DNA of 64,000 nucleotides, taken from contig CM049317.1 of the NCBI GenBank assembly GCA_026874595.1, forward strand, positions 12,626,882 to 12,690,881. Reading direction: 5' to 3'. The position numbers and the translations under genes are program-made. Of the stretch, positions 446 through 48,616 are shown in pieces. Position 1 is the stretch's first letter, and each line of letters starts with the position of its first letter. The notes below the pieces were generated by a model. That model made no database searches, was not told the DNA's origin, and saw only the letters and a program-made list of their open reading frames with translations. This stretch comes from Sipunculus nudus (taxonomy: Eukaryota > Annelida > Sipuncula > Golfingiida > Sipunculidae).

Positions 446-537
446 GTGTAAGCGAACAGTGATTGTGTTATCACCGGACTATATATTATCAGAACAGTGC
501 CAGTTTGAGATTAGATATGCTACAGCACTCACGTCAG
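446..537 (+). CDS. MYD88-like: MyD88-A penultimate coding exon (TIR middle)
   Basis: The exon is 92 nt, between acceptor TTTCAG and donor GTAATT, entering in phase 2 and leaving in phase 1. It encodes CKRTVIVLSPDYILSEQC followed by QFEIRYATALTSG, which corresponds to the TIR segment following Box 2. It aligns without gaps to the exon at 26985-27076 of locus C, residue by residue at most positions. Confidence 0.92.
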
Positions 538-3500: not shown

Positions 3501-4723
3501 ATGGGTCACTTGTTTGTATTCTTCCTACAAGTTGGTAATATTTCACATATTTGATTTAGGAACTTCTTTGCCAAAGGGTGCTGCACAAAAGTTTAATTCT
3601 TTTTTTTTTTTGTATTACCCATTTCAAACAAATTTATGGTGTATATGTGACATGTGATAGCTTATTCCTAATCCCCTCATAGTTTCAAGGATACCATCCG
3701 CCTTTCTCAGGTTAGTGTAGTTTATGCATGGTTTGTTCTCTTCAAAATACAACCTCTCTCACATCAAGTGATCAGAGTGCATTTCTTTCAAAAAAAAAGC
3801 TCTCATCCACCCCAGTTTAGTTCTGAGTCTCACCAAAAGGAGGCAGCTCAAACAGGTGTCAGCCTTAATGGCATGCTGTTCTGAAATTTGCTAAAAGAAA
3901 ACACTTGCCCACAAGAAATTTTCTCAGTCATTTGAAAGAAAAAAGTCTAGATTGTGCTCTAGTCAAAGAGTGTTTCATTACAAACAGGCAACACAATTGA
4001 CAAGAAAAGATATTTTATGCATATTATATAGAGCCATTTTAGTTAAACTTTTCTTTCATTAAGAAAAATGTGGAATATTTATTTTTATAAATTATTTTTT
4101 GTCAGGTTAAATGTTTGTTTAGTAAACCCAAAGTGGCAGAATTATTAATATAGTTGATTATTTTATGATTATATTGTATTAATTTTATGTAATATTATTT
4201 AATATCATATTATTTTATATTATTATATTGTTTTATATCATATTATATATTTCTGTATGAAATGATAAAGATATTAAATTGAATTATACTTTTTTTAGTA
4301 TGATTTGCTATAATATTTATTGATAATAATTGCATAATAAATTATATTAAATGTCATGAAATTTTATTATATTGTATTTTATTATGTACTTCAGATGCTG
4401 GCAAGAAGAAGATAGTGCCAATATTATACAAAAAGTGTCAGATTCCTCACACGCTGCATTTTCTAACATTACTAGACTATACAAAGACTGCGTTTCAAAA
4501 TTGTTTCTGGGACCGGTTATATAAAACCCTGAAAAGTAAAGTATTGGAAGATTCATCATTTAATTCTGAATCAGACTTATCTTCCATATCATTCAGGCCA
4601 AAACGGCGGAATGCTATTCGTAGGAAAACGCAAAGTTCACTCAATGGGCTGTCGTCCTCTGTGTCAAGTAGTTCATCGTCTGAACTTGAAGTGAGTACGT
4701 CATCTCAAGGATCCAAGAGCTGA
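446..4723 (+). CDS. MYD88-like: MyD88-like adaptor (locus A), 3' part of the gene: last two coding exons
   Basis: This is the 3' end of a TLR/IL-1R signalling adaptor gene; the death domain and first TIR exon lie left of the window. Two exons are visible, 446-537 and 4395-4723, joined through a 3,857-bp intron in phase 1. Together they encode the second half of a TIR domain: a segment with VLSPDY and QCQFEIRYA, then IVPILYKK, LLDYTK and the Box 3 pair FW inside NCFWDRL. The TIR half is followed by a serine-rich C-terminal tail and a TGA stop at 4721-4723. Exon size (92 nt) and phases match locus C exactly, which shows they are paralogues. The intron hosts a Helentron-like insertion. The gene runs convergent to locus C. 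Family assignment rests on the TIR sequence and the shared gene structure with C. Confidence 0.88.
538..1240. other. Last intron of MyD88-A, 5' portion
   Basis: AT-rich intron DNA with no exon-like segment recognised; donor GTAATT at 538. The 86-residue open frame at 945-1205 has no recognisable domain and is treated as chance. Confidence 0.6.
1241..3516 (+). mobile_element. Helentron-like (pearl-type) non-autonomous element in the MyD88-A intron
   Basis: It starts after a T-run with TAGCTCAGCTGAC, soon followed by a GTCTGTCCGTCC-rich stretch near 1290. It carries a degenerate tandem array and ends CAGCTGAGC...ACCCATGGGTCACTTG before TTTG. The subterminal GCTCAGCTG near the start and CAGCTGAGC near the end are inverted copies. 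The same start and end pair recurs at 5065-8043. No Rep/helicase coding is seen, so it is non-autonomous. The Helentron/HINE assignment is inferred from architecture and T-run insertion. Confidence 0.6.
1500..2345. repeat. Degenerate ~157-bp tandem array rich in AGGTCA motifs
   Basis: About five diverged units repeat the pattern 'AAGGTCACAG..CCACTTCTTTGAAAAG..CATTTCAAGC..CCTTTCAT..CAAACCTTTC'. Each unit carries AGGTCA hexamers. Perfect direct repeats with one-base spacing occur at 1726-1738, 1861-1873, 1997-2009 and 2316-2328. Confidence 0.75.
3517..4394. other. Last intron of MyD88-A, 3' portion
   Basis: Very AT-rich between about 4000 and 4390, with many TATTAT and ATATTAT runs, ending in the acceptor at 4394. 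No coding signal seen. Confidence 0.6.
4395..4723 (+). CDS. MYD88-like: MyD88-A last exon (TIR C-terminus, Box 3, tail)
   Basis: Acceptor TTCAG precedes 4395. The reading frame continues in phase 1 to a TGA at 4721-4723. The exon encodes about 108 residues: KKKIVPILYKKCQIPH, LLDYTKTAF and Box 3 NCFWDRLYKTLKSK, then a tail of about 65 residues rich in serine. The tail has a segment DLSSIS...RNAIRRKTQSS that resembles DLRSIA...KNAIKALKRS in the tail of locus C. No clear AATAAA is seen within the next 300 bases. Confidence 0.92.
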
Positions 4724-5715: not shown

Positions 5716-6796
5716 ACGGACTTTTTTTCGCAATGCCTGCAGATATTGGCCTGATTTTTGGTGTGTGGGCAGATAATGACCAGTTACAGATCGAGTTCAC
5801 GTTTCGTCCCGATTGACCTACTTTTGACCGTTTTAAGGCTCCTAAACTTGGAAAATTTCATGAAAAATAGAAATTTTCATGACAAATACACATGTACGTA
5901 CTTTTTTTCGCAATGCCTGCAGATATTGGCCTGATTTTTGGTGTGTGGGCAGATAATGACCAGTTACAGATTGAGTTCGCGTTTCATCCCGATTGACCTA
6001 CTTTTGACCGTTTTACGGCTCCTAAACTTAGAAAATTTCATGAAAAATAGAAATTTTCATGACAAATATACATGTACGGACTTTTTTTCGCAATGCCTGC
6101 AGATATTGGCCTGATTTTTGGTGTGTGGGCAGATAATGACCAGGTACAGATCGAGTTCGCGTTTCATCCTGGTTGACCTACTTTTGACCGTTTTATGGCT
6201 CCTAAACTTGGAAAATTTCATGAAAAATAGAAATTTTCATGACAAATACACATGTACGGACTTTTTTTCCCAATGCCTGCAGATATTGGCCTGATTTTTG
6301 GTGTGTGGGCAGATAATGACCAGTTACAGATCGAGTTCGCGTTTCGTCCTGGTTGACCTACTTTTGACTGTTTTACGGCTCCTAAACTTGGAAAATTTCA
6401 TGAAAAATAGAAATTTTCATGACAAATACACATGTACGGACTTTTTTTCCCAGTGCCTGCAGATATTGGCCTGATTTTTGGTGTGTGGGCAGATAATGAC
6501 CAGTTACAGATCGAGTTCGCATTTTGTCCCGATTGACCTACTTTTGACGGTTTTACTGCTCCTAAACTTAGAAAAATTCATGAAAAATAGAAATTTTCAT
6601 GACAAATACACATGTACGGACTTTTTTTCGCAATGCCTGCAGATATTGGCCTGATTTTTGGTGTGTTGGCAGATAATGACCAGTTACAGATCGAGTTCGC
6701 GTTTAGTCCCGGTTGACCTACTTTTGACTGTTTTACAGCTCCTAAACTTAGAAAAATTCATGAAAAATAGAAATTTTCATGACAAATACACATGTA
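5716..6796. repeat. 180-bp tandem array, six near-identical units
   Basis: Units start with the motif ACTTTTTTTCGCAATGCC and repeat at exactly 180 bp (5716, 5896, 6076, 6256, 6436, 6616). Differences between units are a few substitutions and no indels over the first units, implying recent expansion or homogenisation. Two more diverged partial units continue at about 7487-7810, beyond the nested insertion. Confidence 0.93.
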
Positions 6797-6804
6797 CAGC
6801 CGTT

Positions 6805-10036: not shown

Positions 10037-12234
10037 TTTGTCACCCACTCTGCGGTGCGGGGGACATTGATTAGGGTCTGTCTGTCTGTGCGTCTGTCTG
10101 ACTTTTTGTCCATCCGTCAGGTTTCGTTTCCATGCGATAAATTTCCGAAGGCTAAATATTATCTGATTTCATTCAAATTTTGGTAGGTGATTCCTCCCAT
10201 GCTTACCTTGGTCGGGATTGGTTCTGGAGTGTCTGCCTTATGTCTGTCACTTTGCCTGTCTGTCAGGTTTTCTTTTCCGTCTGATAACTTTCTTAAATAT
10301 TATCCGATTTCATCCAAATATGAGTCATTGATTGCTCTCATGCATACCTTGGTTGGGATTGGTTTTGGAGTGTCTGGCTTCTGTCTGTCTGTCTGTCACT
10401 TTGTCTGTCTGGTTTTCATTTCTGTGTGATAACTTTCCTAAATATTATCCAATTTCATCCAAATTTGGGTCATTGATTGCTCTCATGCATACCTTGGTTA
10501 GGATTGGTTTTGGAGTGTCTGGCTTCTGTCTGTCTCTCCGTCTTTTTTTTCTGTCTGTCAGGTTTTCATTTCTGTGTGATAACTTTCCTAAATATTATCT
10601 GATTTCATTCAAATTTTGGTAACTGATTGCTCTCATGCATACCTTGGTTGGAATTGGTTTTGGAGTGTCTGGCTTTTGTCTGTCTGTCACTGTCTGTCTG
10701 TCAGGTTTTTGTTTCCGTGCGATAACTTTCCTAAATATTATCTGATTTCATCCAGATTTGGGTCACTGATTGCAATCTCTCATGCATACCTTGGTTGGGA
10801 TTGGTTTTGGAATGTCTGGCTTCTGTCCATCTGTCTGTCTTTCACTTTGTCTGTCTGTCTGTCAGGTTTTCATTTCTGTGTGATAACTTTCCTAAATATT
10901 ATCCAATTCATTCAAATCTTAGTCAGTGATTCCTCTCATGCTTACCTTGGTTGGGATTGGTTTTGGAGTGTCTGGCTTCTGTCTATCTGTCTGTCTGTCA
11001 CTTTGTCTGTCTGTCAGGTTTTCATTTCTGTGTGATAACTTTCCTAAATATCCGATTTCATCCAAATTTGAGTCATTGATTGCTCTCATGCATACCTTGG
11101 TTGGGATTGGTTTTGGAGTGTCTTGCTTCTGTCTGTCTGTCTGTCACTTTGTCTGTCTGTCAGGTTTTCATTTCTGTGTGATAACTTTCCTAAATATTAT
11201 CCAATTTCATCCAAATTTGGGTCATTGATTGCTCTCATGCATACCTTGGTTGGAATTGGTTTTGGAGTGTTTGGCTTCTGTCTGTCTGTCTGTCACTTTG
11301 TATGTCTGTCAGGTTTTCATTTCTGTGTGATAACTTTCCTAAATATTATCCGATTTCATTCAAATTTAGGTCATTGATTGTTCTCATGCATACCTTGTTT
11401 AGGATTGGATTTGGAGTGTCTGGCTTCTGTCTGTCTGTCCATCTTTTTTTTTCTGTCTGTCAGGTTTTCATTTCTGTGTGATAACTTTCCTAAATATTAT
11501 CAGATTTCATCCAAATTGAGTCATGGATTGCTCTCATGCATACCTTGGTTGGGATTGGTTTTGGAGTGTCTGGCTTCTGTCTGTCTGTCTGTCACTTTGT
11601 CTGTCTGTCTGGTTTTCATTTCTGTGTGATAACATTCCTAAATATTATCCAATTTCATCCAAATTTGGGTCATTGATTGTACTCATGCATACCTTGGTTG
11701 GGATTGGTTTTGAAGTGTCTGGCTTCTGTCTGTCTGTCTGTCACTTTGTCTGTCTGGTTTTCATTTCTGTGTGATAACATTCCTAAATATTATCCAATTT
11801 CATCCAAATTTGGGTCATTGATTGTACTCATGCATACCTTGGTTGGGATTGGTTTTGAAGTGTCTGGCTTCTGTCTGTCTGTCTGTCACTTTGTCTGTCT
11901 GGTTTTCATTTCTGTGTGATAACTTTCCTAAATATTATCCGATTTCATTCAAATTTAGGTCATTGATTGTTCTCATGCATACCTTGGTTAGGATTGGTTT
12001 TGGAGTGTCTGGCTTCCGCTGTCTGTCAGTCTTTTTTTTCTGCCTGTTAGGTTTTCATTTCTGTGTGATAACTTTTCTAAATATTATCCGATTTCATTCA
12101 AATTTTGGGCAGTGATTGCTCTCATGCATACCTTGGTTGGGATTAGTTTTGGAGTGTCTGTCTGTCAGTCCTTTATCAAGCATGAAAAACAAAATATCCC
12201 AAAGCGGGGGACATTAATTCAACGAATTTGCTTG
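10037..12234 (+). mobile_element. Inner Helentron-like element with 148-bp array
   Basis: It opens GTCACCCACTCTGCGGTGCG then GGGGACATTGATTAGGG and CTGTCTGTCTGTGCGTCTG. It ends AAAGCGGGGGACATTAATTCAACGAATTTGCTTG before TTTTT. It interrupts the T-run of the outer element: the left junction reads CAGTATATTTTTTT and the right junction resumes TTTTTATAAAATTTGATA, which together restore the host repeat phrase. Confidence 0.65.
10130..12170. repeat. ~148-bp tandem array, about 14 units
   Basis: The marker TGATAACTTTCCTAAATATTATC recurs about every 141-160 bp (near 10278, 10428, 10578, 10719, 10879, 11032, 11178, 11327, 11478, 11627, 11772, 11917, 12065, with a diverged first unit near 10135). Each unit also contains a (CTGT)n stretch of variable length, which explains most of the period variation. 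The Cys/Leu/Ser/Val-rich open frames here are by-products of the repeat. Confidence 0.93.
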
Positions 12235-16564: not shown

Positions 16565-17136
16565 CTAAAAAAAACACAAATAAATATTTGAAAAGGCTAG
16601 GTCTGTCCCTGCTGTATACACTTAATGAACAATTAATAGTATAAAAAAGCAGTGTACGTACATATAATTTCGTACTTTTGTTCATCATCGGATAACAAGA
16701 TTTCGGTTGTCCCTAATAATCTAATGATTTTTGGGTACTACAAGGAGTTTTCTTATAATGATCTTGCTAATAAAAACCAGCAGTGTGTCAGTTTCGGTTT
16801 ATTTAATCACCATTTCATCTTTAGGACTGAGTAAACTTCACAAATAAAAAATAAACCCTTTCTGTAACATTTCTGTCACGGAAACACGCTCTCTGGTTAA
16901 AGCAAAGAGTTGACTGGAAAAAACCGTACGGTACCTTTGGCCTCCAAACCTTGAACTTTGTATTTGTATGTCTGAAAATAAAATGAATGACGCTATTTGC
17001 GATTTGGTATGTCATTTGGTAAGGAGGACCGGAGAAGCATACATTTAAGTTTCTTTAACACAGACGGAAATACTTCAGGTATCCTCCCGGGACCTTCAAA
17101 ACAATTGAAAGTATCACAGCTAAGTCCGCTTCTATA
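16565..17136. other. No gene seen
   Basis: AT-rich DNA between the pseudogene and the minisatellite. No remnant of the 42-nt linker exon or death-domain exons could be recognised. Confidence 0.5.
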
Positions 17137-18466
17137 GTCAATGTTGAGACACATAAGACACTTGATCTAGTCAATGGTGAGACACATCAGACACCTGATC
17201 TAGTCAATGGTGAGACACATTAGACACCTGATCTAGTAATGGGTGAGACACATCAGACACCTGATCTAGTCATGGGTAAGAAACATCAGAAACCCGATGT
17301 AGTCATTGGTGAGACACATCAGACACCTGATCTAGTCATGGGTGAGACACATCAGAAACCCGATCTAGTCATTGATGAGACACATCAGACACCTGATCTT
17401 GTCCTGGGTGAGACACATCAGACACCTGATCTAGTCAATGGTGAGACACATCAGACACCTGATCTAGTCATGGGTGAAACACATCAGACACCTGATCTAG
17501 TCTTGGGTGAGACACATCAGACACCTGATCTAGTCATGGGTGAGACACATCAGACACCTGATCTAGTCACTGGTGAGACACATGAGACACCTGATCTAGT
17601 CATGGGTGAGACACATCAGCCACCTGATCTAATCACTGGTGAGACACATCAGACACCTGATCTAGTCATGGGTAAGACACATCAGACACCTGATCTAGTC
17701 ATGCGTGAGACACATCAGACACCTGATCTAGTCATGGATGAGAACATCAGACACCTGATCTAGTCACTGGTGAGACACATCAGACACCTGATCTAGTCAT
17801 GGATGAGACACATCAGACACCTGATCTAGTCATGGGTGAGACACATCAGACACCTGATCTAGTCATGGGTGAGACACATCAGACACCTGATCTAGTCAAT
17901 CATGAGACACATCAGACACCTGATCTAGTCATGGGTGAGAACATCAGACACCTGATCTAGTCACTGGTGAGACACATCAGACACCTAATTTAGTCATGGG
18001 TGAGACACATCAGACACCTGATCTCACTGGTGAGACACATCAGACACCTAATTTAGTCATGGGTGAGACACATCAGACACCTGATCTAGTCATGGGTGAG
18101 ACAAATCAGACACCTGATCAAGTCATGGGTGAGACACATCAGACACCTGATCTAGTCACTGGTGAGACACATCAGACACCTGATCTTGTAACTGGTGAGA
18201 CACATCAGACACCTGATCTAGTCAATCGTGAGACAAAATCAGACACCTGATCTAGTCAATCGTGAGACACATCAGACACCTGATCTAGTCATGGGTGAGA
18301 CACATCAGACGCCTGATCTAGTCATGGGTGAGACACATCAGACACCTGATCTAGTCACTGGTGAGACACATCAGACACCTGATCTAGTCATGGGTAAGAC
18401 ACATCAGACACCCGATCTAGTCATGCTTGAGACACATCAGACACCTGATCTAGTCAAGGATAAAGT
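17137..18466. repeat. 33-bp minisatellite, about 40 units
   Basis: The unit is ATGGGTGAGACACATCAG plus ACACCTGATCTAGTC. Variation concentrates in the first six bases (ATGGGT, AATGGT, ACTGGT, TTGGGT, AATCGT and others), while the rest is nearly invariant. Because the period is a multiple of three, long frames of repeated MGETHQTPDLV appear. One-base deletions near 17740 and 17940, a shortened unit near 18020 and a one-base change in length near 18235 break the frame, so I do not treat it as coding. Confidence 0.97.
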
Positions 18467-25957: not shown

Positions 25958-26268
25958 CTACACCGAAGAGATTGACGTCATCCTTGTCCAGGGCCTGTCA
26001 ATGTGAGGCTCGCTCATGCTCCGTTTAAGCGCCTTGATAGCGTTTTTGCCTCCAGTCGTAGAGAGGGCGATGGACCTGAGATCCGTCTGAGGCGACTCGT
26101 GTTCCCAACTTCCGGTGGAGTACTTGCTTTTGATGGTGTCACAAAGACGCTTCCAAAACCATCTCTGGAACTGTGGACGGGTGTAGTTGAGCATGGCCAT
26201 AAACTGAAGGATTCTCGGCACTCTGCACGGCTTGATTATGATTGGTATAATCTTCTGCTGCCCAGCAT
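25958..26268 (-). CDS. MYD88-like: MyD88-C exon 7 (TIR end, Box 3 and serine-rich tail)
   Basis: 311 nt, ending in TAG at 25960-25958. Encodes KIIPIIIKPCRVP, MLNYTRPQFQRWFWKRL (Box 3) and then about 60 residues beyond the usual MyD88 end. The tail contains TDLRSIALS, KNAIKALKRSMSEP and ends in TSISSV. RSMSEP fits the RSxSxP class of 14-3-3-binding sites if the second serine is phosphorylated. Confidence 0.95.
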
Positions 26269-29200
26269 CTGTATGATATAATATTATGATCATATATAAA
26301 GTATAAGCTAAATCATAGATGCACATCAGGCATCTGTCATTTGTACAAATAGAATATCATTAATTATATGAAGGATAATATAAACAATAGTTGCTCGACG
26401 TAGGTTAAAATATAAATAGAAGGTTTCGGCAGTGTCTTTAACCAGATAACAAACATTTTCCACGATACTGGCAACACCTGTTGGCGACATTTAACACTAG
26501 GAGTTCGGGTTGGATTAATCGATGAAGAAAGATCAGAATAAGTCGTATTTCAAATGCAAAAATAACGTCTTCTAAATAATTTTAATTGGCAAAATTACGT
26601 GGTCTGTAACTTGTTTTGGTTTAAAACTGCCACTGCAGGCGTCGATTTTGTTACGTGTCCGGAAGAGCAAGGCCATATTTTAATCATTTTATTATAGGAG
26701 GCTTTAGTTAAAAAGCTGATCACTGAATAATATATCATACTTATATGATTCATGACCTTTTGGTCAACTATACCTGAACATGTTATGCATTATACGTGCG
26801 AGATTAAGTCAAATCTGACATCCTGTAGAGGGATTTGGTAAAAGATATTTATTCCGTCTTGCGACAATGAAGCTTTTATTGATTTTGGAGTAATCCTAGT
26901 AACAGAAATCTAGTTTGGCTGTGGTATGTGCTCTCTCGGTACGAGCTCTCTCGTTTATATTTCTGAGATGACAAGGTGTCTCACCTGGCGACAATGAACT
27001 GGCGTAGCGGATCTCAAACTGACACTGCGGTGACCCGATGTACTCCGGCGATAAGACGATCAAAGTACGCCGACATCTGGAATGTAAAGGTACACGCCAT
27101 GTTTGTAAACGACACAAGGTTTTAGGATTCGCTATACCTAGTATATTTACTACTGATCGAAATAAACAGAATTCCAGAAAGCCTATGGCATGTTGATCAG
27201 CAACGGACATGTGCATAAATTACTTATTACTTACATTTATCATAGATGGATAAGGCAGGGGTTGAAATATGGTTATATATCAGAATGTAATATATGCGAT
27301 ATCTCGTCCTGCAGAGGTTGAAATTACATCAGGTTCAATAGCACACCGATAAGATACATTTTTCAGTTAAGTTGAACAATTTGCACAATTATGACTGTTT
27401 GTATTTAGGAAATATACATATGGTCAGATTTTACTTGATGGTAGGACTCCAAGAGAGCTTATGATTGGCTGGTGCAGGAATGACGTCATGCACAGAATTT
27501 AATGATGAATAAAATTTAGCAATACACGTTGGTTTATCCTCTGAAAACTTGAATACCGAAAGTGTCAGAAATACTACACGCTTTTAATGAGATCTAGAAT
27601 TGTTGGTTACAAGGTCTTCGTCATGGAAGAGTTGACATTGCCCAGGGATATACTGGCTGTGCTGCTAAAAGTTATATTTCGCGTTTATGATTCGGTCAAA
27701 TTATAGCAAAACTTGACTCACGCCTGCAGACTAGAAACGGAATCGCCGGTACGCGTTTGGAACCGGTTTATCGCACACCGGGCACAAGAAGAACGAACTA
27801 AGTACTGTAAACCATCTTTCAAGTGGACTAATATGAACCGAACTGATGCGGAATAAGGGCTTACTACCGACAAATTGATCCGATTCACCACCCGGATTAG
27901 TTACTATAGTGCGGATACCAACATAGAGGGATACTTAGGATCCATTGCGAAATTTCGAAATAATAATTCCTCAGGATGTATAGGATAATACAGAAAATTA
28001 CCCCCCTCCCCCTTCGCCCCCACTTCCATTCGAAACTTGGCTTCGGTCCCGACACTTCAAGGCCAAACATAGGCAGTTGCGTGACAACAGTTTACTCCCA
28101 ACTCAGTTATAATATAGACGTATACATCTTATTGCGGTAGGGTTTTCGTATACCATTGCTTTTTAAATGTAAGTAGGCACTACCTCTCTCAGCGCAATTA
28201 AAAAAAACGCCTTACCTCTCTTCAATGACCTGCGCAGTAATTTCGTAAGCAGAGTCTCCAAAAATCAGGTCTCGTTCTGGGATCAGGAGTTTGAGTTTGT
28301 ATTTCTTCTCCAGGACACGAATCATGCGCTCAACGAAGGGCAAGTCTTCTTCACAATAACTCACGTAGGCGTCGAATTGTTCCCTCTCACCGGCCTCTGA
28401 AACAAGAATCATTCATAACATGTACACATTTCCCTTTCATACATGGCTTCATGAAAGCTACAATTCCTTCAAATTTCGAATTTAAACAAAAATGTAGTTT
28501 TATTAGATAATAAGGTTTGATTCCAATGGTGGATACAGGAACTAAGGGTGTGTGTTTGGACTTTATACGTAGCTCTCATACCAGAAGTAAGTGAAAACCC
28601 GTGTGCGACGCATAATCCGGCGTCTCTTTTCCCTAACGAGCATGAACTTGCTAATTCAATTTTCAGATTTTTTTAGGGCCCAGATCAGGGGTTGAGCGTC
28701 CTCTGTGTCCCCTTCTAATTCCGTCCCTAGTTCCCGAGGGTGGCCTTGTCTGTTAAATGAGGCTGACGATAAACGATAAATTAAATTGTGACCCCTGTAC
28801 GTTGAACTCATGTACCGCTTTTTAAAAGCTAAACGTGTTATGTGACGTTAGTGCGTCTCCCCTTTTTGCCCCAAATCGCACGAATACGAATAATACCTCA
28901 CTTAAACTACTGGCCATCCCTGATGTCTTCACCCAACGATGTCAAATAAAAGCTAGCATTCTTGGTATTAAGTTTTAATAGAATATATGATATATACAAT
29001 CATTTATGGTTGAAAGGAATGACAACTTGTTAGCAGTTCAAAGTTGGACAGGATCACTAAAATCATGGCGATGAGGAGCGCTGATTCTGACAGGGGCGCA
29101 TATCAGGTTTTATACGGTATCAGTAGGGCGTAATGCTGGTATTATATATGAGTGGTCCTATACCCTATAAGCAGCGGTTCTGCGATGCTAAACTATTTGC

Positions 29201-32200
29201 TGCAATGAGCACTGCAAGAAACCGCGGTTGCCAGTGAAGTTTGGCCAACAGGCGCTGCTGTCTCTGTGGAATTCCCCTTGTCTAATATTTAACCAATCAT
29301 GAGTTAAGAGCGTAGAGTGGTCCTTGCGCGCATCTGATCATAGTCTCTTACACAGACACACGGTGGCGCTCCGCAAGCCCCCAGTGGGTCTGTAAACGGA
29401 GACCATTTTTGGCCTGGGATTCCGCCCGAATCTATTCAGATGAGTTCAAGCTGCGCATGCGTGGTACGCGATTCCGTTCAGGTAGAGCTGCAAGCGAGTC
29501 ATGGGCACGAAACACATTTTCGCTATCAAAAGTCACTCAAATTAGGATAACTGACGCTGTGTCATTGACGTACGGCATATACTCAGGTTATTGCAGCTTC
29601 TAAGTATCACTCATAAGGGTACCACATGTGCATTCATGATGACATACTGTATTAAACGTTGCACTTCCTGATATCGCTCAAGTCCATGTGATATGTGTGT
29701 ACGTTTTGCCTGCATGCTTCGTGTGCCAGACTGTTATCAATTAATAAATAAAATATCAAAGTACGACCATAATTTGCTTTTTATAAATAAAACTGTTTAA
29801 ATAGTACCATATAATCAGATGGGCTAGCATTAAACCTGTACTGCCAAAGTTTTTCTTCCAAGAAAATTTTCTTAGTGCCACGCCCCCTTTTCTTTGGTTG
29901 GTGTGTACGCGTGTGTGTGTGTGGGGGGGGGGGGGGGCGGAGTTTTTACACAGATGTAGGCATGTGAGAAAATGCCAAAGTTTTGAGCCGAATGAACATA
30001 TATTATTATGTGATATTTAGATACAACAAAATATTAATTATGATTTTCATTTTGTTTTTATTTTTGCACTGGATTAATTTTTTATGTATTTTAACAACAA
30101 ATTATTATTCAAATGTGGTTCCTTTACTGCTAAATGTGACATGTGTAACATCCTGATTACCTTAAATGTTTAAAGACAAATTCATTAAAACAATACATTA
30201 ACTGAAAATATAAAAATAATGCAGTTCAATCATAGATAGTATATATGCTTTTCCACCTTCTGATATAAAGATACATGCAATCAGCAATAATCAGTATGAC
30301 CCAATATATAAGCATTGTGTTCAACAAATAGCATGTGTTTATTAAAAAAACCCATTAAATCAGAGAAAACCCTGTTATGTTATAGTCATGCTGAGTTCAT
30401 AAATAAACTTTCCCAGATTTATTTCATTGTTTTATCATTGCAAGCATTTCATGAATACATTCTATTGATATCCCTATTTTTAACAAGACATGATAATCAT
30501 ACAATATAACCATATCTTATTTATGTTCTGTAATGCATTTGAACTTTAATATCATCTCTTACAGAATGAAAGGTCTTAAACTCTGAATGAGTTTTAATAA
30601 ATCTGCTGGCAGAACATGGCAGTGTTGTAGAATTCCAGTCTGGACTTGGACTCTAGTTCAGACTCAAGTTCACTTTTTAAGGACTCTGACTTGGACGCGA
30701 GGGTCCTGAACTTGGACATCTACTTAGACTCGCAGGTATAAGGACTCAAGAAATCAGCCAGAGTCCATCTCAAGCAGAAGCGGATTGAGGGGGGTCCTGA
30801 GGTCATATGCTGCAACCTTTTTTCAGGATTTCAGACAACATTTTGTGGCCTGGATCCCCCTTTTATCAGGCCTCGGGACCTTATTTTGACTGTTGAGTCC
30901 AATAAAAAAGAAAACTCACATATTATGTTCAGATTGTGCACATGGGTTAACTACTAATTGAATATTATAAAAAAATAAGACAAAACATACCAAGATTTAG
31001 CTCTGTATCAGGAGTTAAATCTAATTAAACATTTAAATAAAGCACACTTGAAAATTAATAAATTTGCATGATTATCTCAAATATCCTTTTCCAAGTTCTT
31101 TTAATAAGAAAATTTGTGTCAAACTTGGACTCTGCATGTACCAAATGACTCAGACTTGAAGAAGGTGGACTTGGACGTAAACCTTAAGGACTCAGATTTG
31201 GAATTGGACTCGAGTGACCTGGACTCTGACTTGCACTTGGACTTGGATGGGTTGGACTCAACTACATCACTGGACCATGAACCCTCATGGTAGGGAATGC
31301 AAATAATCTTTCCTTTAAGATCAACTTTTCAGTATATATCAAAAGAATACAGAATTACACAAGACTGAAGCAGTCAGATCTAAGGCAACAGCCTGGCATG
31401 TGACAGCTTATCTACTTATTACTTTATATCAGGTGCTTGATTTGAGAAAAAAAACTTATGTTTTTATGGTTAAAGCACAAAATTGTGTGAAATATAATGT
31501 AAAGTTACATAGACCTGGTATGGACTCTTTGTTTTTAGGCAAGTCTGGTCTTTATTATTGGTATCTCCTTTACTTTGATTTCCTATATTTGAATTAGTAT
31601 TTTTGTTGGACCTAGTGGACTTTCATAAGTATATATTTTACCATAGAAGAAGATCTGTGCTTGTATCCATGTTTTATTAAGGATTTGTTATATGTATTAA
31701 CATTATATAGATATCTAAATACAATGTAGTTATTCACATGACATGAATAGAATGATCATATGTCTGTGTGTCTGCATGCATAGTATTTGACCACTGTCTC
31801 ATTCAAATTTACAGTCATATACACGTAATTGGTACCATGTAAATGCTGTCCTTAAACAATTTTCTCCTTTATGTAAATTTATCTTAATTGCTTTTTTCCT
31901 ACAAAAATACAGGACTTTTTATTTCCACATGTTGTGGGTTAAGTAAGAATTTGATTTTTTTTTCACATGAAATCCACATTGAAAATTTATTAGTGTGCAA
32001 ATCAAGGTTTATAGGTTTCTGCTTTAACTTTCACCTCCAAAATGCAAGTAATTTATTAATGCAGCAGACCTTTACCTTAATATATGAATCACATAGACTA
32101 ACACGGAGCATGTATTCACCTATTTTTCATCCAATCTACCCCTAAGCATACACCCCTATAGAGACAGTGGGCTTTGTTTTGTCATGGACATAAGGGTGCT

Positions 32201-33900
32201 TCTTCAGTATCTTACTGGAACTAAAACTTTAAATTTTAGAACTGCACCCGTCCCACAATTACTAGTAGTACAACAGCATGTTCTTTATTTACAGCTGAAC
32301 ATAATATAGTGATCAGCTGTTGAGATGTACCCGGCTATATATGGGAGCATGTCAGTTGCAAAATAAAACCCAGTTTGAGTTACCGGTAAACAGTTTTAAC
32401 AAGGTATTCCTCAGAATTGGTTTTACCACTAATTTCTATTATTCAGAGTGATGTGCTTTGTACATGCAACCCAACATTAGTTAAAGTGCAAGTTGCAAAT
32501 GGGGTGTTAATAGCTTCCTTTAGACAGGGATGATGTGGTCAGAGCCACTTGGCTTAGCTACCTATGTTCACAAAATGTGTGCTAAACTTCTTTTGACCAA
32601 TTCAAAAGAAGCTAATCTTTAAAAAAATATTTTAATATGCTGGGCAAAACTCTGGGGTACATAATGGTTAATCCTGGATAAAATACTTTTAACCCAGGTT
32701 TTACCCACTGGATTGGGTAAAATAGGTTTCACCTTGGTCAAATAGCAACCCTGAATGTACTACTGCTTATTGTCCATAAATCAAATATGGAGTGTCAGGT
32801 GACTTTCCTTTTCAAACAATAATCCCCACTATACCATGTATATGTATATTTTATATCCTTAGGTATCACCTAGAGATCAAAACTATCAAAAGGACATGGA
32901 TATTACTGTGAATGCAATAAATTAAATTAAGTGAGCCTTTAAATGCTGGTTGACTGGCTTTGATTCAGTGAATTATTTGATGCATTGTTACATGCAGCCC
33001 TTATATATACTGATAGTCATATGTGAGAGAGAACATGTGGACAAATGTTAATTGAAGCAATGAAAGGTACTGACACTAGGTTGAACCTCAACTGATCTTT
33101 AATACTGAACATATATCATAAACATTACTAATATATTGCATTTCCCATCAAGAAACATATCTGACCAAAAATAATAAACAGAAATGATGCAACAGTGAAT
33201 GCAATTTTATCAAGCACATGCTAATAAATCTTTAGCATTATAGCCTTTAATCGATGACATTATGCCTATACATGTTAAACTGCAGTGCAACATTCCATAT
33301 CTGAGCACACCTCTATATCCAACTGGAGATGATCAAATACACACAAGCTAGTAATACACAGGGTAGCTGGTATTTTTTACAAAGATGTAACTGAACTGCG
33401 AGCATTAATGCCATATCTTTTCACATTAAAATTTAAGACATATTATCCTTTTAGGTAATTTTTACTCATACTTTTGGTCCTCAGACTTAATTGTCCCTGA
33501 GTTAAAATGTTATTCATAGTGGACCAGTCACAACTGGCATCTGTTTGACTTTTTTTAACCATTGAAAATCCAATTTAACCTTAAACAAAGGTCTCCCCCT
33601 TCATAAAACACAGTTGGGCAAACTCAAACTTTGTCAATTAATTTTATTTGCTGCAAACAAGTTCCATCATTTCTCTTTTAAAGTAACATGTCTTCATTTT
33701 TATTCAAGTTGAAGTATATTTATCTATCAAACGCCCTCTTTTCATTGATAAATCAGAAGTACTGCACATATTTATATGACAAATATATATTTTAATTTTG
33801 AATAATTTGTTATAAGGTTATGGCATGATACTTGGAATGTATATTACACAATGTATGACATATGAGTTAAAATATATGAATCTTTGTGCTGAATGTATAT

Positions 33901-33964
<64 letters not shown>

Positions 33965-36900
33965 CTAAGGCCCAGTAAAGTAACAACCGTTGAATATATT
34001 TATTAAGAACATGACACTATAAAAAATATATACAGGTATAATATAAAAAAAAGGATTATGCTTGAAATCTAATATGATTTGGGGTAAAATATGATAAATT
34101 TTGCTCTTTCTAAGTGCTTGGTTTTGGGAGAATGTTGTCCCACAAATTTTTGACAAACCTCAGGCAATGGGCAGTTTTCAGAAAAAAAAAAACACATCAA
34201 GACTTACCCTGACGACAAGCTTTGAGCTGAGGGGCACATCGACCTTCTGTATAGCCTTAGGTTTGACATGTATGCATATCCCACTTCGTGTCCTTTGCCC
34301 ATAAAACTGACATTATGCTTCCGTAATAATTAGCAGTTGTATTTACAATAAGTGTCTATTGTTCCCTCATCATGAAGCCCGATAGTAAAAAGATCCCGAT
34401 GAAGTACTCGTCAGCTGACAGCCAGCACCATGTGCGCTTGTTTATTGACAGAGTCAAGCGGGGGCTTTCCCGGGATTGGCCAATGAGAAAATTGAGTAAA
34501 TCTGGCCAATCAGCGAAAGCCTTTTATTCCCCTTCCACAGGCTCAATCGGAGCCTGTGGAAGAGGCTAATCTGATCACTACAACAATTGTTAGCATCACG
34601 GATAGGGAACGCTATGCCTTGGTGTCAGGACCGTGTTTTTTTTTCTCCAGGGACCTCACCAACCTTCATACTCTAAAGACAGCGCCAAACTCAGTTTACT
34701 GACCACCTGAATATAGGTTGTACGCTCGAATATGATTTGTACACATAGGATAAGAATAACGTACTTCGTAATAAATGTTTCTAACTTTTGATATGTAAAT
34801 CAAAATATCTTTTTTTACATAAATACAAACATACTTACTGTCTCCTACGGTCAGGAGCTCTCCGGAATCTGCAAAAAGGAATGACAGATATATTAATCTT
34901 TTTTAGCCCCCTTTCTTAGCAATAGTTTCGCATGAACAATCACTGTTTCTGCTTCTAATTTCATACCCTAATTTAAATTGTTCTTCCATGGTTAGAATCA
35001 TTATTGATAGAGAGTTTCTCTTTCAAATTACCGCTGGAGACGGAAAATGTGAATGTTTGCAACTTGCAATGAAGGATCCAAAAGTTTGCTTTAATTCTTA
35101 AAATGGTGTGAGTTTACAGAAATTACACATGGTGGCAATACGGCAGGCCAGGCCATTTCATGAAAATTTGTGGTATTACATAAAATATAAAAAGAAGACC
35201 CTTTTAAAGGCAACTGCTTTAGCATTCAACCTTTTTTAATATCAAAAGATGCTTAATTTACATACCTTGTCCTGCCTTGATATTCGAATGCCTTTGTACA
35301 TCTGCATCTGTTAACAATAATATAAATATGGATATAAATCTATGCAACATATTATGATAAACTGAAAAAAAAGATGCAATGAGGTTCAAAATCATAAATG
35401 AATTAAACGAAAAATCAAAATACATGTACTTCTATATCTTCTTTCAACAGAGTTGAATTTGCTCATTTATTTTTCATGTCAATATATACTTTTGACAGAA
35501 TATATAATATCTTCTTGACTAGTAAATATATACCGTATTTTCTCTAATGAGCGCTAACAATTGTAGGAAACATTAGGAATGGTAGTTTCCTTGCTTTGTG
35601 AGATCCCTGACATGAATAACTGACCAGGGTACAAGATGCGTCATTAATTTACTGTTTAATAATTAACAAAATGGTATCGTGTATCGACCCTGATTCTTTG
35701 TGCAATAATAGTGACTAAGATAATCAGTTATTCCTGAAAAGGATGGCCGCTTGGGATTGTGAACAATACACAGTTGTCATTAAGGGGCTGTTATTTGGGC
35801 AGGGGCGCTTATTAGGTTAAATTCGGTATTCACAGAAGATTCAAGTGTAGTTTGATTATGTTTTATCACCCAAACTACTAATCTATATGTTCGACAAGTG
35901 AAGTATCCTTGTTGGAAAAACAGGATTTACTATTTTAGGTAACAGTATAGATTTCGTCACATAGCCGCCATCATATGATCAGGTATAATTAACTCCGTAA
36001 ATATTGCGTGGGTGCACACTTGTAGCAATTCCGGTTCACGTTTTGACACAATCAGTGCAACCATCTGACCTGTACCAAATGATCCCAATGATCTATAGTA
36101 AATAATTAATGGTGATCATTTCAATTGTGGATGAAATATGTAATATGTAGGGGGAGGGGGTGTAACCGCGTCAGGGGGTCAAGTCTCGTGAATGAAAAGG
36201 TTAATTCCAACCAAATAAATACTGAAGCCGGAGTTTAAATTCATCAGTAGAAACAAAATAATTTGGTGCAGCAGTGAAGGGCTTCTTTGGCCAGAAAAAC
36301 AAAAAAAAACTCCATCGGATAACCCTGTTTTTTATCCATGTTAGACCTTAAAAGTGTTTATCTTTTTAAATTCCTAGCACAGAGTTCTGTCTCACGGTAT
36401 TTGCATCGATGAACTGTTTCTTAAAGATCTTTACAATTGTATTAGATAACTGATAAATATATTTGAATTATTCTAAACACCCAGTTAAAGTGAATCAATT
36501 TTATTATCAGTCATCTTTTTGTTTTCTGATCAATCTTTCCTTTATGCATTTATTATTAAATAAAACATCAAACGATGCTTAGTATTTGATTTTGAAATGG
36601 GAAAGTGGGCGCGAGAGCTATATTTGACGCAGCAAACGGCTGACCCACATGCATATACGTGAGCCAACGTTCCTACGTAATCTCATAAACTGGAACAGGA
36701 TTTGCCGTCTTAGGTACCAATTTAGGTTCCACCTCCTAGCCACCATCATATGATCAAGTATGATTGACCTAGTACAGGGTGCGTAGGTGAATACTTGCAT
36801 TACTTCCGCTTCACTTTTTGGCAAAATCTGACAAGGACCAAAATGACCGGAATATAATCCATGTCGTGAATTAAAAAGATATGGGTCCAACAAAGCAACA

Positions 36901-39848
36901 GACCTTTACCATCACATGAGCGACATCTGTTGGTGACAAGTGAGGTCACATCCACGTTTCATATTTGATATGTCTCAAATACAGATACGACCTGGTTCGC
37001 TGGACCCGCAGACAGGAGACGAAAATAGACGCAGTGCGCATGCTCGGGGAAAAGGTCTATTTTCACACTGCGCAGAATCGCACTCACAAGAGTTTGACTC
37101 TGCTGGTTAGGGTTTATGAGCTACAAGATTTTCCTCCCACAATACATGAGGAGCGTAAGTATAAAAGTAGTGAATAGGGTAATGCAGTCCGTTTAATTAT
37201 TTGGAAACAAGAATTGTTTTAGGCAATTTGCATAAACATGGTAGTTTTTGCGGTAAGCACTTTATAGAAAAGCAATATTTGTTTTTCCTTGAAATGTAAC
37301 AAATTTTGATTTCTGAGTTAGACAGTTGAGACAAGACCCGACGGACCCAGCTTTCCTGACAAGAAGAGGTTCGTTTATGTAGAAATTATGTAATCAGCAG
37401 ACTGTTAAATTAAAATATAATCATCTAACAAGATAAAATGCGCTGGTTTTCTGGTGGCACCAGAAGCAGATCCGTGGGGGGGGGGGAGCAAGGGGGTCCG
37501 GATCCTCCTTTTGCAGTCGCTGCAACCTTTTTTTTAAAGAGTTTGTTGCCTAAACCCGCTTTTCCTAACCCGGGGAACCTTTTTTAGGGTTTTCATTTAT
37601 CCGCCCGGGTTGCATCTTCACCCACCCCTTCCTAAACATCGGCCCCTATAACCGAAGAATTAGGGGCGTAAGACCTGCAACGCCGTCTGTAATTATGTTT
37701 TCCACCACAGTATGTATTAAAAATAAGACGTTATAATAGCTAGATAGACGTACAGTTCACCATGCAGAACATCTTCACTGGCTCTTACACTAATGTGCGA
37801 CGGTCAAGGAACTATAAATTAGTATTAAGATTTACCTATCCCAGTTTTTGCAATTGAGCCATATATACATAGAACCGGCGAGCCTTACAAGCATTACCGA
37901 CGACCCAAGTCTACTTGGGGCTTGTTGATACTTTATGAAACAGCAAACATAGTTGTTCGACAGAGAAGGTCTATGGAAATGTAGCTTCCCTTAAAGAAAA
38001 TGTGTAACGCCTGTGGTCGAAGAAATAAACTGGACATTACAAGCCATAGGATCGGTATCAGTTACTGTGGAATACTTGAGCGGACACAATTTGGGGACTT
38101 CAATCTGACTCACAGAAAAGCACAGCTTGTAATCTGGAGGCAGAATCTGAAGTAAATTTGACGCAGAAATAAGTGTTGCTGGCGTATGTATCTCTTTGTG
38201 GACCCCCCCCCCCAAAAAAAACAAAAACAAAACAAACTATACAAGCAACATATGAAAGAACACACAATACATTTGCACCTTCTTGAGTGTGAACATTCTT
38301 ATTTAATCCACCAACACCAGATGGCGCTGACAGACAACAAATGCAACTTTTTCTTTAAGACTATCCAAAAATAAACTCTTACCTAACGACGGTTTTATAT
38401 CTTCTATAACATCCCACCTCTGTAGCTCGTATAAACACTTGAGTAACAGAGACACGGTATTGAGTTGGTCCTTCGCAGCCCATTTCTTCAAAAATGATTC
38501 GAGGTTGGATTCGGACCCCTCACTTTGGTCTTTTTTATTCCTCCTCAGGAGATGTATCAGTCCCCTCCCGTCACAGGGGAGGTTTCCGTTAATCCTGATA
38601 GGAGAAGGTGCGGCTAAATCAACGCATAAAATATTCCATGTGGTAGAACTTAACGCCTGGGCCGGAGTGTTTCCATAAGCACTGTACAATGAGTCTATTT
38701 CTTTTTGATGTTGTTGTTCTATCAGTCTGTTGTGATATGAATCTGCAGCTTCCTCTGAAAAAAAAGACGAAAAAAATACATAATATATTAACTAGATGGC
38801 TTTGTTTTGACACATAACTCCCCCCCCCCCCCCCCTATAATGGGCCATTCACAATCATTAGGGGTATAAATACGCTTATCTCAAAACAATGATTATAGAT
38901 TTCAGCAGATTTGACCGGAGATCAAGATCAAGGTCACTAGTTTTCTGACTCCTTCTACATGTTACCGCGTTCATAAGATGATCCTGCAGACGATGCGGAC
39001 GACGACGAAAGATGATGACACTCAAAACAACGTCTCCCCGGGGGGGGGGGGGGGGGGATAATAAACTTGTTCTATCGACCTGTTCGTGTATTAACTACTT
39101 CCAATGAAAAAAAACACGAACACAATATGTATTATAATTAATGAGATTATGCGTTTTGACTGTCCCTTTTAAAAGATTATTTGATAGAGATAACCGCTTC
39201 TTATTTAAATTGATTTAAGTAGGCACATTCAGTTTGGGACAATATGAAAGGGCAATAGTAAACACTTCCTCCATTTTATATTTCAGTGTCACTCGGGCCA
39301 AGGGTCTACTGGAAATGTGTGCCCCCGGTGTGAAATCATACGCTATTTTTGGATTATAAGACAAAGGATCCAATACTCGTTTGTGAGAAATAGACGAACG
39401 TAAGTATGATTCCGCGTATACAGTGCAATTAATTTTGTCCCAATATTTATGAAATATTCATGTTAGATTTTGCATATACATTAATATTCAACAGCCAAAA
39501 TGTATGTATAAATAGCAGGGTCAAGTACTCACCAACCAATTGCATGATTTCCGTTAAGATATCTCTCCTTTCCAGCTCTTCTAGTTTCTCTAATATAATC
39601 CCCACGTTGCTGCCTGCTTTTGCACCATAAGCTGCCAGCAATGACCCAGTTGGGTCGTTGTGCTGCTCAAAGTTTTGAATTTCAAGAAAACAAAACCCCA
39701 GCAGCTCAGCCAGTCCCGTCCAGTCGGGTGCCATTTGGTTTTTGTTGACAATTATCTGTCGGGGATTCAAATTTAATACCAACGTCCTTTTTATTCGATT
39801 TGTTAATTCACTGACCGGAAGGTCGTAAAAGTTATTTCCGGCCGTCAT
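25958..39848 (-). CDS. MYD88-like: MyD88-like adaptor (locus C), complete seven-exon gene, double death-domain form
   Basis: Cytosolic adaptor expected to link TIR-domain receptors to IRAK-type kinases and NF-kB. Exons, from the 5' end: 39848-39533, 38754-38383, 35307-35266, 34868-34839, 28396-28216, 27076-26985, 26268-25958. The spliced frame is 1344 nt, giving 447 residues; all junctions are GT-AG and in phase. The start has G at -3 and an in-frame TAG two codons upstream. Domains: death domain (about 10-100, with DWTGLAELLGF); intermediate-like segment with EQQHQKE (about 106-130); a second death-fold-like region (about 135-228, with FLKKWAAK and LYELQRWDVIEDI); linker (230-254); TIR (about 258-390) with Box 1 FDAYVSY at 261-267, Box 2 around RD 295-296 and G300, and Box 3 FW at 382-383; and a 60-residue tail with RSMSEP at 427-432. 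Vertebrate MyD88 is about 296 residues, so this protein is about 150 longer. The family call is very secure; the second death fold is inferred from local similarity. Confidence 0.94.
26269..26984 (-). other. MyD88-C intron 6
   Basis: 716 bp, AT-rich, GTGAGA to ACAG. Nothing else recognised. Confidence 0.8.
26985..27076 (-). CDS. MYD88-like: MyD88-C exon 6 (TIR middle)
   Basis: 92 nt, phase 2 to phase 1. Encodes CRRTLIVLSPEYIGSPQC then QFEIRYASSLSPG, matching the CRRMVVVVS...C.F...FALSLSPG pattern of vertebrate MyD88. Same length and phases as the exon at 446-537. Confidence 0.95.
27077..28215 (-). other. MyD88-C intron 5
   Basis: 1,139 bp, GTAAGG to CCAG. A C-rich patch lies at 28004-28025. 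No repeat family or exon recognised. Confidence 0.8.
28216..28396 (-). CDS. MYD88-like: MyD88-C exon 5 (TIR Box 1 and Box 2)
   Basis: 181 nt, phase 1 to phase 2; acceptor TTGTTTCAG, donor GTAAGG. Encodes EREQFDAYVSYCEED, FVERMIRVLEKKYKLK and LLIPERDLIFGDS. FDAYVSY is Box 1, and the PERDLIFG stretch is the BB-loop region (Box 2), where vertebrate MyD88 has SDRDVLPG. The BB-loop proline is replaced by Phe (IFG), as read here. Confidence 0.95.
29921..29938. repeat. G-run after (GT)n
   Basis: GTGTGTGTGTG followed by about 16-18 Gs on the + strand. Confidence 0.9.
30636..31265. repeat. Low-complexity GGACTTGGACTC clusters
   Basis: Two blocks (30636-30780 and 31120-31265) built from degenerate copies of GGACTT and GGACTC, separated by AT-rich DNA. 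The part between them includes an AGAAGCGGATT..GGGGGGTCC stretch similar to 37464-37500. Confidence 0.75.
33907..33959. repeat. (TA)n microsatellite
   Basis: About 26 TA dinucleotides within intron 4 of MyD88-C. Confidence 0.97.
34533..34561. repeat. Perfect 12-bp inverted repeat with 5-nt loop
   Basis: TTCCACAGGCTC, then AATCG, then GAGCCTGTGGAA. Two ATTGGCC/GGCCAAT motifs lie 30-60 bp away (near 34476 and 34503). It may be the end of a small mobile element or a structured intronic site. Confidence 0.75.
34839..34868 (-). CDS. MYD88-like: MyD88-C exon 4 (30-nt linker micro-exon)
   Basis: Acceptor TTTTTGCAG, donor GTAAGTA, phase 1 at both ends. Encodes DSGELLTVGD. A recognisable homologue with splice signals is present in pseudogene B at 16536-16564, which supports it as a true exon. 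Confidence 0.85.
34869..35265 (-). other. MyD88-C intron 3
   Basis: 397 bp between the two micro-exons, GTATGT to GCAG. Nothing else recognised. Confidence 0.7.
35266..35307 (-). CDS. MYD88-like: MyD88-C exon 3 (42-nt linker micro-exon)
   Basis: Acceptor TTAACAG, donor GTATGT, phase 1 at both ends. Encodes DADVQRHSNIKAGQ, a hydrophilic linker. It is supported by splice signals and phase fit rather than by homology. Confidence 0.72.
35531..35829. mobile_element. ~300-bp MITE with TIRs
   Basis: The left end reads ATACCGTATTTTCTCTAATG then AGCGC. The right end on the reverse strand reads ATACCGAATTTAACCTAATA then AGCGC. The arms match at about 21 of 25 positions and both abut TA, fitting a Tc1/mariner-type non-autonomous element. 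A single related phrase, CTCATTAAGCGCC, occurs near 63018. Confidence 0.7.
35935..36110. repeat. Diverged direct repeat, copy 1
   Basis: Phrases GCCGCCATCATATGATCAGG, TGCGTGGGTG.ACACTTG and TTCCGGTTCACGTTTTG recur in order in the copy at 36711-36860, with many substitutions between them. Confidence 0.75.
36711..36860. repeat. Diverged direct repeat, copy 2
   Basis: Matches copy 1 in AGCCACCATCATATGATCAA, GTGCGTAGGTGAATACTTG and CTTCCGCTTCACTTTTTGG. The 91-codon reverse-strand frame over it is probably incidental. Confidence 0.75.
38383..38754 (-). CDS. MYD88-like: MyD88-C exon 2 (intermediate segment plus second death-like fold)
   Basis: 372 nt, phase 1 at both ends; acceptor TTTTTTTTCAG, donor GTAAGAG. 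It encodes residues 106-229. The start (EEAADSYHNRLIEQQHQKE) resembles the intermediate domain that follows the death domain in vertebrate MyD88. It then continues with CDGRGLIHLL, ESFLKKWAAK, NTVSLLLKC and LYELQRWDVIEDI. These line up with DWTGLAELL, GSLLAAYGAK, NVGIILEKL and LEELERRDILTEI of exon 1. The invariant DW at the start of the second helix is changed to DG, so the fold is diverged. Confidence 0.9.
38755..39532 (-). other. MyD88-C intron 1
   Basis: 778 bp with a C-run at 38820-38835 and a G-run at 39040-39057, both on the + strand. These can pair as an inverted homopolymer about 200 bp apart. Confidence 0.8.
39533..39848 (-). CDS. MYD88-like: MyD88-C exon 1 (death domain 1)
   Basis: 316 nt encoding residues 1-105 plus one base. 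The motif series LPVSELTNRIKRTL, DWTGLAELLGF, DPTGSLLAAYG and VGIILEKLEELERRDIL follows the six-helix death domain of MyD88, including the conserved DW and DPTG..L features. Donor GTGAGT. The ATG has G at -3 and an in-frame TAG at 39854-39852. Confidence 0.95.
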
Positions 39849-48006: not shown

Positions 48007-48237
48007 GGAAAGGGTATACACAGAAAAGTGGTTCACTGCCAGTGGGATTCGAACCCACGATCTTCCGATTTCCGGTGCGGCTGCCTTAGTCCACTTGGCC
48101 ATGACAGATTCCCAACCTCACTATGTATTTGTACACTTTTATAGGAACCAGCGAAGTGACGTCATGTTAGTGACGTCATAGTCTCACTCACTATACGTGT
48201 CGGCACGGCGACTTTTGCATGCAGCAGGGAGAACTGA
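48007..48237 (-). mobile_element. tRNA-derived SINE, reverse-strand copy (left arm of an inverted repeat)
   Basis: On the reverse strand it has an A-box-like TGGCCAAGTGGACTAAGGC and a B-box GGTTCGAATCCC, typical of a tRNA head, followed by CACTGGCAGTGAACCACTTT. Upstream of the head lie two TGACGTCA palindromes (48157-48164 and 48171-48178). It is almost the exact reverse complement of 48348-48579. Confidence 0.85.
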
Positions 48238-48347: not shown

Positions 48348-48616
48348 TCAGTTCTCCCTGCTGCATTGCAAAAGTCGCCGTGCCGACACGTGTAGTGAGT
48401 GAGACTATGACGTCACTAACATGACGTCACTTCGCTGGTTCCCCTAAAAGTTTACAAATACATAGTGAGGTTGGGAATCTGTCATGGCCAAGTGGACTAA
48501 GGCAGCCGCACCGGAAATCGGAATATCGTGGGTTCGAATCCCACTGGCAGTGAACCACTTTTCTGTGTATACCCTTTCCATCTATAAAACAATGAACCAG
48601 CATGGCTACTCATACA

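Follow-up and report, generated by a model that had tools for sequence, protein, structure and literature searches.

The adaptor MyD88 connects Toll-like receptors with inflammation signalling. In the annelid Sipunculus nudus, we analysed a stretch of 64,000 nucleotides (C12:12626882-12690881, where C12 denotes contig CM049317.1; hereafter, the window) from a genome assembly of 1.43 Gb in 153 contigs. Three intact MyD88 copies, here designated genes A, B and C, were found in this genome, and one of them, gene C, is predicted to encode two death domains in tandem (DD1 and DD2) ahead of its TIR domain.

Gene C comprises five exons on the minus strand, extends from position 39848 to position 25958 of the window, and would give rise to a protein of 423 amino acids (Table 1). 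All of its junctions are of the GT-AG type and the joined frame is free of stops across these 423 residues. The donor of exon 1 follows position 39533 (GTT G/gtgagt; the slash marks the border), while exon 2 has the acceptor ttttttttcag/AG GAA and the donor TTA G/gtaaga, both in phase 1. Because exon 2 is in phase 1 at both ends, a direct join of exon 1 to exon 3 is likewise open, over 299 residues. The exons for the TIR domain were located by tblastn. Intron 2 (window positions 28397-38382) is about 10 kb long, and a tblastn search of introns 1 and 2 for a relic of an intermediate domain gave no match up to E 50.

In agreement with the original prediction, exon 1 encodes a standard MyD88 death domain: it matches Pfam Death well above threshold, has the equivalents of Trp47, Glu52 and Arg98, and is 43% identical to the human MyD88 death domain. 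The best matches of the spliced protein in the PDB were to MyD88 for the death domain (6i3n, E 1.5e-16) and to the MyD88 TIR domain (7beq, E 1.1e-33), with TIR_2 scoring 55.3 bits; a search against NCBIfam returned no match. Gene C thus has the N-terminal death domain, the C-terminal TIR domain and the five-exon layout of a MyD88 gene, including a phase-1 symmetric exon 2 of the Tyr116 type. What sets it apart is the number of death domains, which in MyD88 is exactly one; a second one lies in exon 2, and we therefore class gene C as a MyD88 variant rather than as a standard MyD88. The last residue of DD2 is 229 and the TIR match starts at 235, so that only five residues lie between them.

The beginning of exon 2 resembles that of an intermediate-domain exon. 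It reads EEAADSY in gene C, YRNVKSY in gene A and EADIKKY in gene B, with the tyrosine at the same place in all three; exon 2 of A and B further have NSIPS in common, with the tyrosine as their seventh residue. The human exon 2 starts with EEDCQKY. Since the tyrosine-bearing head is shared with A, B and the human exon, exon 2 of gene C combines a head of the intermediate-domain kind with a death domain. In human MyD88, Tyr116 is described as the sole intermediate-domain residue essential for nucleation of the Myddosome (available text of PMC8772076). The predicted architecture of gene C is DD1, an intermediate-domain head with the Tyr116 equivalent, DD2 and TIR. This bears out, with exact coordinates, the original prediction that exon 2 starts with such a head and goes on to a diverged death domain, which lies between DD1 and the TIR domain and keeps the reading frame.

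Evidence that exon 2 encodes a death domain comes from a profile built from the death domains of gene C exon 1, gene A and gene B, with exon 2 itself excluded. Run on a 190-kb region with 4643 open frames, this leave-out profile found exon 2 at E=2.8e-10, the next frame outside the death domains being at 0.8. Rebuilt from full-length exons, it gave exon 2 a score of 41.7 bits, compared with 13.2 bits for the best of 20,000 shuffles (17,391 reported). Alignment with hhalign returned exon 2 with a probability of 96.1 (E 3.3e-9, 98 columns), and a two-sequence blastp search without composition correction aligned exon 1 and exon 2 at 29% identity over 98 columns (E=3e-4). The three pairings of short motifs in DD1 and exon 2 from which the original prediction had started fall into the same columns, within one residue, in four-sequence alignments. 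A genome search with the death domain of gene B, run up to E 10 and with only the best candidates scored, returned four places, namely B itself, gene C exon 1 (E=3.2e-7), gene C exon 2 (E=6.6e-7) and gene A exon 1 (E=8.6e-4). Conversely, exon 2 as the genome query returned itself, gene B (E=1.2e-7) and a weak, stop-containing place on another contig, C10 (E=0.09).

Several results weigh against this assignment. The profile search proposed originally for this segment gave a mixed outcome: exon 2 alone matched Pfam Death at E=9.2e-4, but its score of 19.7 bits is under the curated cut-off of 22.6, and two Death stretches in the spliced protein were seen at a lenient limit of E 1. Used as a genome query up to E 10, the exon 1 domain returned itself, A and B and did not return exon 2. 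The 26 places matching Pfam Death genome-wide at E 0.001 or better include exon 1 of C and exon 1 of A, and contain neither exon 2 nor the gene B domain. A profile of gene A and gene C exon 1 only scored exon 2 at 16.1 bits (E=0.0023), and phmmer found nothing for exon 2 in the PDB up to E 10, in contrast to the gene B domain, whose first match was MyD88 (3mop, E=5.3e-5). Weak and strong scores alike fit one picture, in which exon 2 would belong to the gene B type and change fast, so as to be recognizable mainly via gene B. That the likeness arose by chance, or reflects a generic helical linker and no death domain, could draw on the sub-threshold Pfam score, the lack of a PDB match and the absence from the genome-wide Death list. 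It is contradicted by the shuffle control, the whole-genome search with the gene B domain and the leave-out profile and hhalign matches; by these comparisons chance is excluded as the source of the likeness, and the reading as a whole is scarcely credible. DD2 is very likely a homologue of MyD88 death domains.

As to which death domain DD2 derives from, a tree of five sequences (97 columns, 200 bootstrap replicates) placed it as sister to the gene B domain with a bootstrap of 100. Of 15 topologies, 12 were rejected by the approximately unbiased (AU) test (p 1.4e-5 to 0.0244), and the three that contain the pair of B and DD2 were accepted and were not separated from one another (AU p 0.32, 0.77 and 0.42). 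That DD2 arose from DD1 by internal duplication was considered and rejected, the three topologies pairing the two domains having AU p of at most 0.0124. Consequently, the helix-by-helix match to DD1 that was noted originally stands as death-domain homology, but DD2 is sister to the gene B domain and no diverged copy of the DD1 of its own gene. The TIR tree (four sequences, 139 columns) also united B and C, with a bootstrap of 99, or 94 when a fourth copy, D, was added. Here, the AU test rejected both alternatives (0.014 and 0.040), the latter not being rejected by the Shimodaira-Hasegawa or Kishino-Hasegawa test (0.052). On the simplest reading, the ancestor of B and C had a B-type death domain, which would now be DD2, and C acquired the canonical DD1 and, with it, a portion of an intermediate-domain exon. 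Since the TIR domains of B and C, too, are the closer pair, it may be DD2 that was there originally and DD1 that was added. The alternative is that a B-type death domain was captured into C; summed branch lengths are about 1.66 between B and DD2 and about 0.79 between the TIR domains of B and C, and a divergence between B and DD2 that is not small by that measure argues against a recent capture. A caution on the placement is that both trees are small and that DD2 has the longest branch of the death-domain tree, making long-branch attraction possible.

The condition of DD2 was assessed over 26 core columns that are hydrophobic in human MyD88, gene A, DD1 and gene B, with helix limits set by hand from the human domain. 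DD2 retains 20 of these 26, and helices H1, H2, H4, H5 and H6 have most of their core preserved; lost are all three positions of helix 3, the conserved tryptophan (now glycine), and single positions in helix 4 and at the beginning of helix 1. The equivalents of Arg98 and Asp100 are retained, and that of Glu52 is a histidine. With helix 3 eroded, a complete six-helix fold is doubtful for DD2. Compared with the gene B domain, the proportion of nonsynonymous differences (pN) is 0.47 and that of synonymous differences (pS) 0.87, the latter being saturated. When neutral change was simulated to the same nucleotide identity (44%), the frame was stop-free in only 12 of 5000 runs. This argues for constraint on the DD2 frame during most of the time since its split from B, without thereby proving a present function.

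The other MyD88 copies are close by. A genome search with exon 3 of gene C, which encodes the first part of the TIR domain, gave 24 places. The top four, with E no higher than 8.5e-9, are all located within C12:12.52-12.69 Mb and correspond to genes A, B and C and a broken, TIR-only copy D. For the other 20 places E was no lower than 0.003; 15 are in open frames of more than 400 residues, as expected of Toll-like receptors. Gene A, on the minus strand, encodes 365 amino acids; its only death domain comes from exon 1, and its exon 2 is short YRNVKSYLASKNSIPSQLQVPE. Gene B, on the plus strand, encodes 330 amino acids and is built in the same way, with one death domain from exon 1 and an exon 2 that is again short EADIKKYKDQNSIPSSLLP; it is intact, spans C12:12603502-12631604 and has an intermediate-domain exon of 57 nt. 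Its diverged death domain clears the Pfam cut-off at 27.9 bits. A scan with four small profiles up to E 5 listed no second death domain upstream of that of gene B (C12:12550001-12603000), nor in gene A between exon 1 and the TIR domain. Copy D, just downstream of gene C on the minus strand (window positions 16265-14108), consists of relics of exons 3-5 with stops and is sister to the gene C TIR domain. Minisatellite arrays lie between the MyD88 copies, at 17135-18456 (33 bp x 40), 10241-12160 (149 bp x 13) and 5713-6797 (180 bp x 6). Elsewhere in the window, two tRNA-like Rfam matches in opposite orientation, at 48034-48108 (minus strand, 40.3 bits) and 48478-48552 (plus strand, 38.8 bits), at which ARAGORN found no tRNA, may be parts of tRNA-derived repeats.

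Table 1. Exons and domains of gene C and the exons of gene B, in window positions except where C12 coordinates are given.
Feature	Position	Strand	Remarks
Gene C exon 1 (ATG and DD1)	39533..39848	-	Pfam Death 43.1 bits, E=4.8e-11; ATG at 39848; donor phase 1
Gene C exon 2 (372 nt, phase 1-1; intermediate-domain-like head, then DD2)	38383..38754	-
Intermediate-domain-like head of exon 2	38669..38754	-	Starts EEAADSY; Tyr in register with human Tyr116
DD2 (residues 135-229 of the 423-residue model and split last codon)	38383..38668	-	Eroded helix 3; Gly at the conserved Trp position
Gene C exon 3 (TIR part 1)	28216..28396	-	Acceptor phase 1, in frame with exon 2 and with exon 1
Gene C exon 4 (TIR part 2)	26985..27076	-
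Gene C exon 5 (TIR part 3, C-terminal tail, stop)	25958..26268	-
Gene B exons 1-3	Left of window: C12:12603502, 12612715, 12625583 or just before	+
Gene B exon 4 (TIR)	446..537	+
Gene B exon 5 (TIR end, tail, stop)	4395..4723	+

How such a protein might work is suggested by the geometry of the human death-domain filament. In the available text of PMC7054835, type I contacts have H1/H4 on one side and H2/H3 on the other. Type II contacts pair H4 plus the H4-H5 loop with H6 plus the H5-H6 loop, whereas in type III contacts H3 meets the H1-H2 and H3-H4 loops. DD1, being canonical and followed by a tyrosine-bearing head, would enter the helical Myddosome. In DD2, loss of H3 would damage the type Ib and IIIa faces and leave Ia, IIa and IIb largely intact. 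Since helix 3 contributes one side each to the type I and type III faces, DD2 would be expected to dock by its other faces and to extend the helix poorly, and a covalently attached domain that docks but poorly extends would limit assembly. Of the readings considered, we favour, at somewhat less than an even chance, that DD1 builds the Myddosome and that DD2 is a partial docking or capping domain. In that case DD2 might serve, near the receptor, as an integral cap or spacer or as a regulator of Myddosome size; the tandem death-effector domains (DEDs) of cFLIP offer a comparison. The effects suggested originally, on stoichiometry or as an internal decoy, are likewise hypothetical. Several points weigh against this. 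The capping role is inferred by analogy, DD2 might no longer fold with its tryptophan and helix 3 gone, and the gene model, the use of DD2 and its conservation are all read from the sequence of one genome. Recruitment of IRAK and activation of NF-kB by the gene C product are putative.

Another explanation, which we regard as possible but on the unlikely side, is that DD2 is a degenerating passenger, left without a task after the fusion of two MyD88 pieces and now no more than a longer linker between DD1 and TIR. The lost tryptophan and helix 3, the score of exon 2 alone under the Pfam cut-off, the five-residue distance to the TIR domain and the missing intermediate-domain relic in introns 1 and 2 all speak for decay. 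Yet most of the core is retained (20/26), pN is well below pS, and the frame has neither a stop nor a break at an identity to B at which few neutral runs stay open. If, on the other hand, DD2 were a folded second docking module, through which one MyD88 bridges two death-domain partners (IRAK/Pelle/Tube-like or the gene B product), its B-type rather than DD1-type character would allow for different partners and the retained Arg98 and Asp100 equivalents would count in favour of this reading; with part of two of three interaction faces removed by the helix 3 loss, and a histidine in place of Glu52, we consider this improbable. Less probable by far is that exon 2 is a pseudo-exon outside the mature protein and that gene C makes a DD1-TIR or other form. 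The exon 1-exon 3 junction is also in frame, but the strong acceptor tract, the GTAAGA donor, the Tyr116-type motif exactly at the exon start and a frame open at deep divergence are difficult to reconcile with it. Returning to the favoured role of DD2 as a partial docking or capping domain, the likely origin of gene C would be a canonical death-domain exon and a partial intermediate-domain exon fused ahead of a MyD88 gene of the B type, or else the capture by C of a death domain of that type. Skipping of exon 2 would yield DD1-TIR without the Tyr116 segment, the arrangement of MyD88S, the inhibitory human splice form. Taken together, gene C might be a self-limiting Toll adaptor assembled from parts of two MyD88 paralogues, with the added DD1 nucleating, the moved B-type domain without helix 3 setting size as a cFLIP-like cap, and the skipping of exon 2 perhaps switching it to an inhibitory form; this composite proposal is speculative and, as a whole, rather unlikely.

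The main finding is a predicted MyD88 with two death domains beside two ordinary single-domain copies in the same genome. MyD88 is usually treated as an adaptor with one death domain, the oligomer size of which is set by single-domain geometry. A natural tandem form offers a ready-made test of whether Myddosome stoichiometry is set by the covalent architecture of the adaptor, and a DD2 with part of its docking surface lost could change or limit the assembly of the signalling complex. Moreover, Toll signalling in this animal would then be seen to diversify by the joining of paralogue parts as well as by copy number.

The original prediction had allowed that such forms might already be reported in bivalves. 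We found no MyD88 with two death domains, from bivalves or otherwise, in the open-access literature, covered mostly by title and start of abstract and with subscription journals largely and supplements outside; an earlier report or an unremarked database entry is possible. Wording on tandem or plural death domains in PMC4521185 concerns IRAK kinases, and that in PMC8301327 a reference on ASC. Molluscan MyD88 paralogues share with the present locus the Death-TIR architecture and, in oyster, the occurrence of several linked MyD88-like genes. They differ from gene C in that the domain lists in the available text of four papers give one Death domain or none (PMC4346834, PMC10854496, PMC7148125, PMC9226314). 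Expanded MyD88 families are known from molluscs. These sources describe ten oyster MyD88 genes, six Death-TIR and four TIR only (PMC4346834), a scallop protein with Death at 30-118 and TIR at 164-299 (PMC10854496), a giant clam protein with Death at 24-123 and TIR at 179-316 (PMC7148125), and an Anodonta protein of 474 residues with one death domain by SMART (PMC9226314). The available text of two further reports gives up to 23 MyD88 genes in a scallop (PMC12521104), and five MyD88-like proteins in Aplysia, among them proteins that have an Armadillo-type fold or a ROCO domain (PMC9334734).

Two tandem death-fold domains are also found in cFLIP and procaspase-8, which belong to another death-fold family and are without a TIR domain, so that the analogy is one of arrangement only. 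cFLIP is described as joining a composite site of the caspase-8 assembly and terminating signalling, with H3 disordered in both of its DEDs (available text of PMC11074299). Human MyD88S resembles the predicted product of gene C with exon 2 skipped, as DD1 is joined to TIR without the Tyr116 segment; in gene C, where skipping is hypothetical, a death domain would be dropped as well. With canonical human MyD88 (death domain, intermediate domain, TIR), gene C has in common the five exons and their borders, DD1, the Tyr116-type start of exon 2, the TIR domain and an exon 2 that can be skipped in frame (human layout from the available text of PMC8772076). The two differ in exon 2, which has 46 codons in the human gene and 124 in gene C, where it holds the second death domain and brings it to within five residues of the TIR domain.

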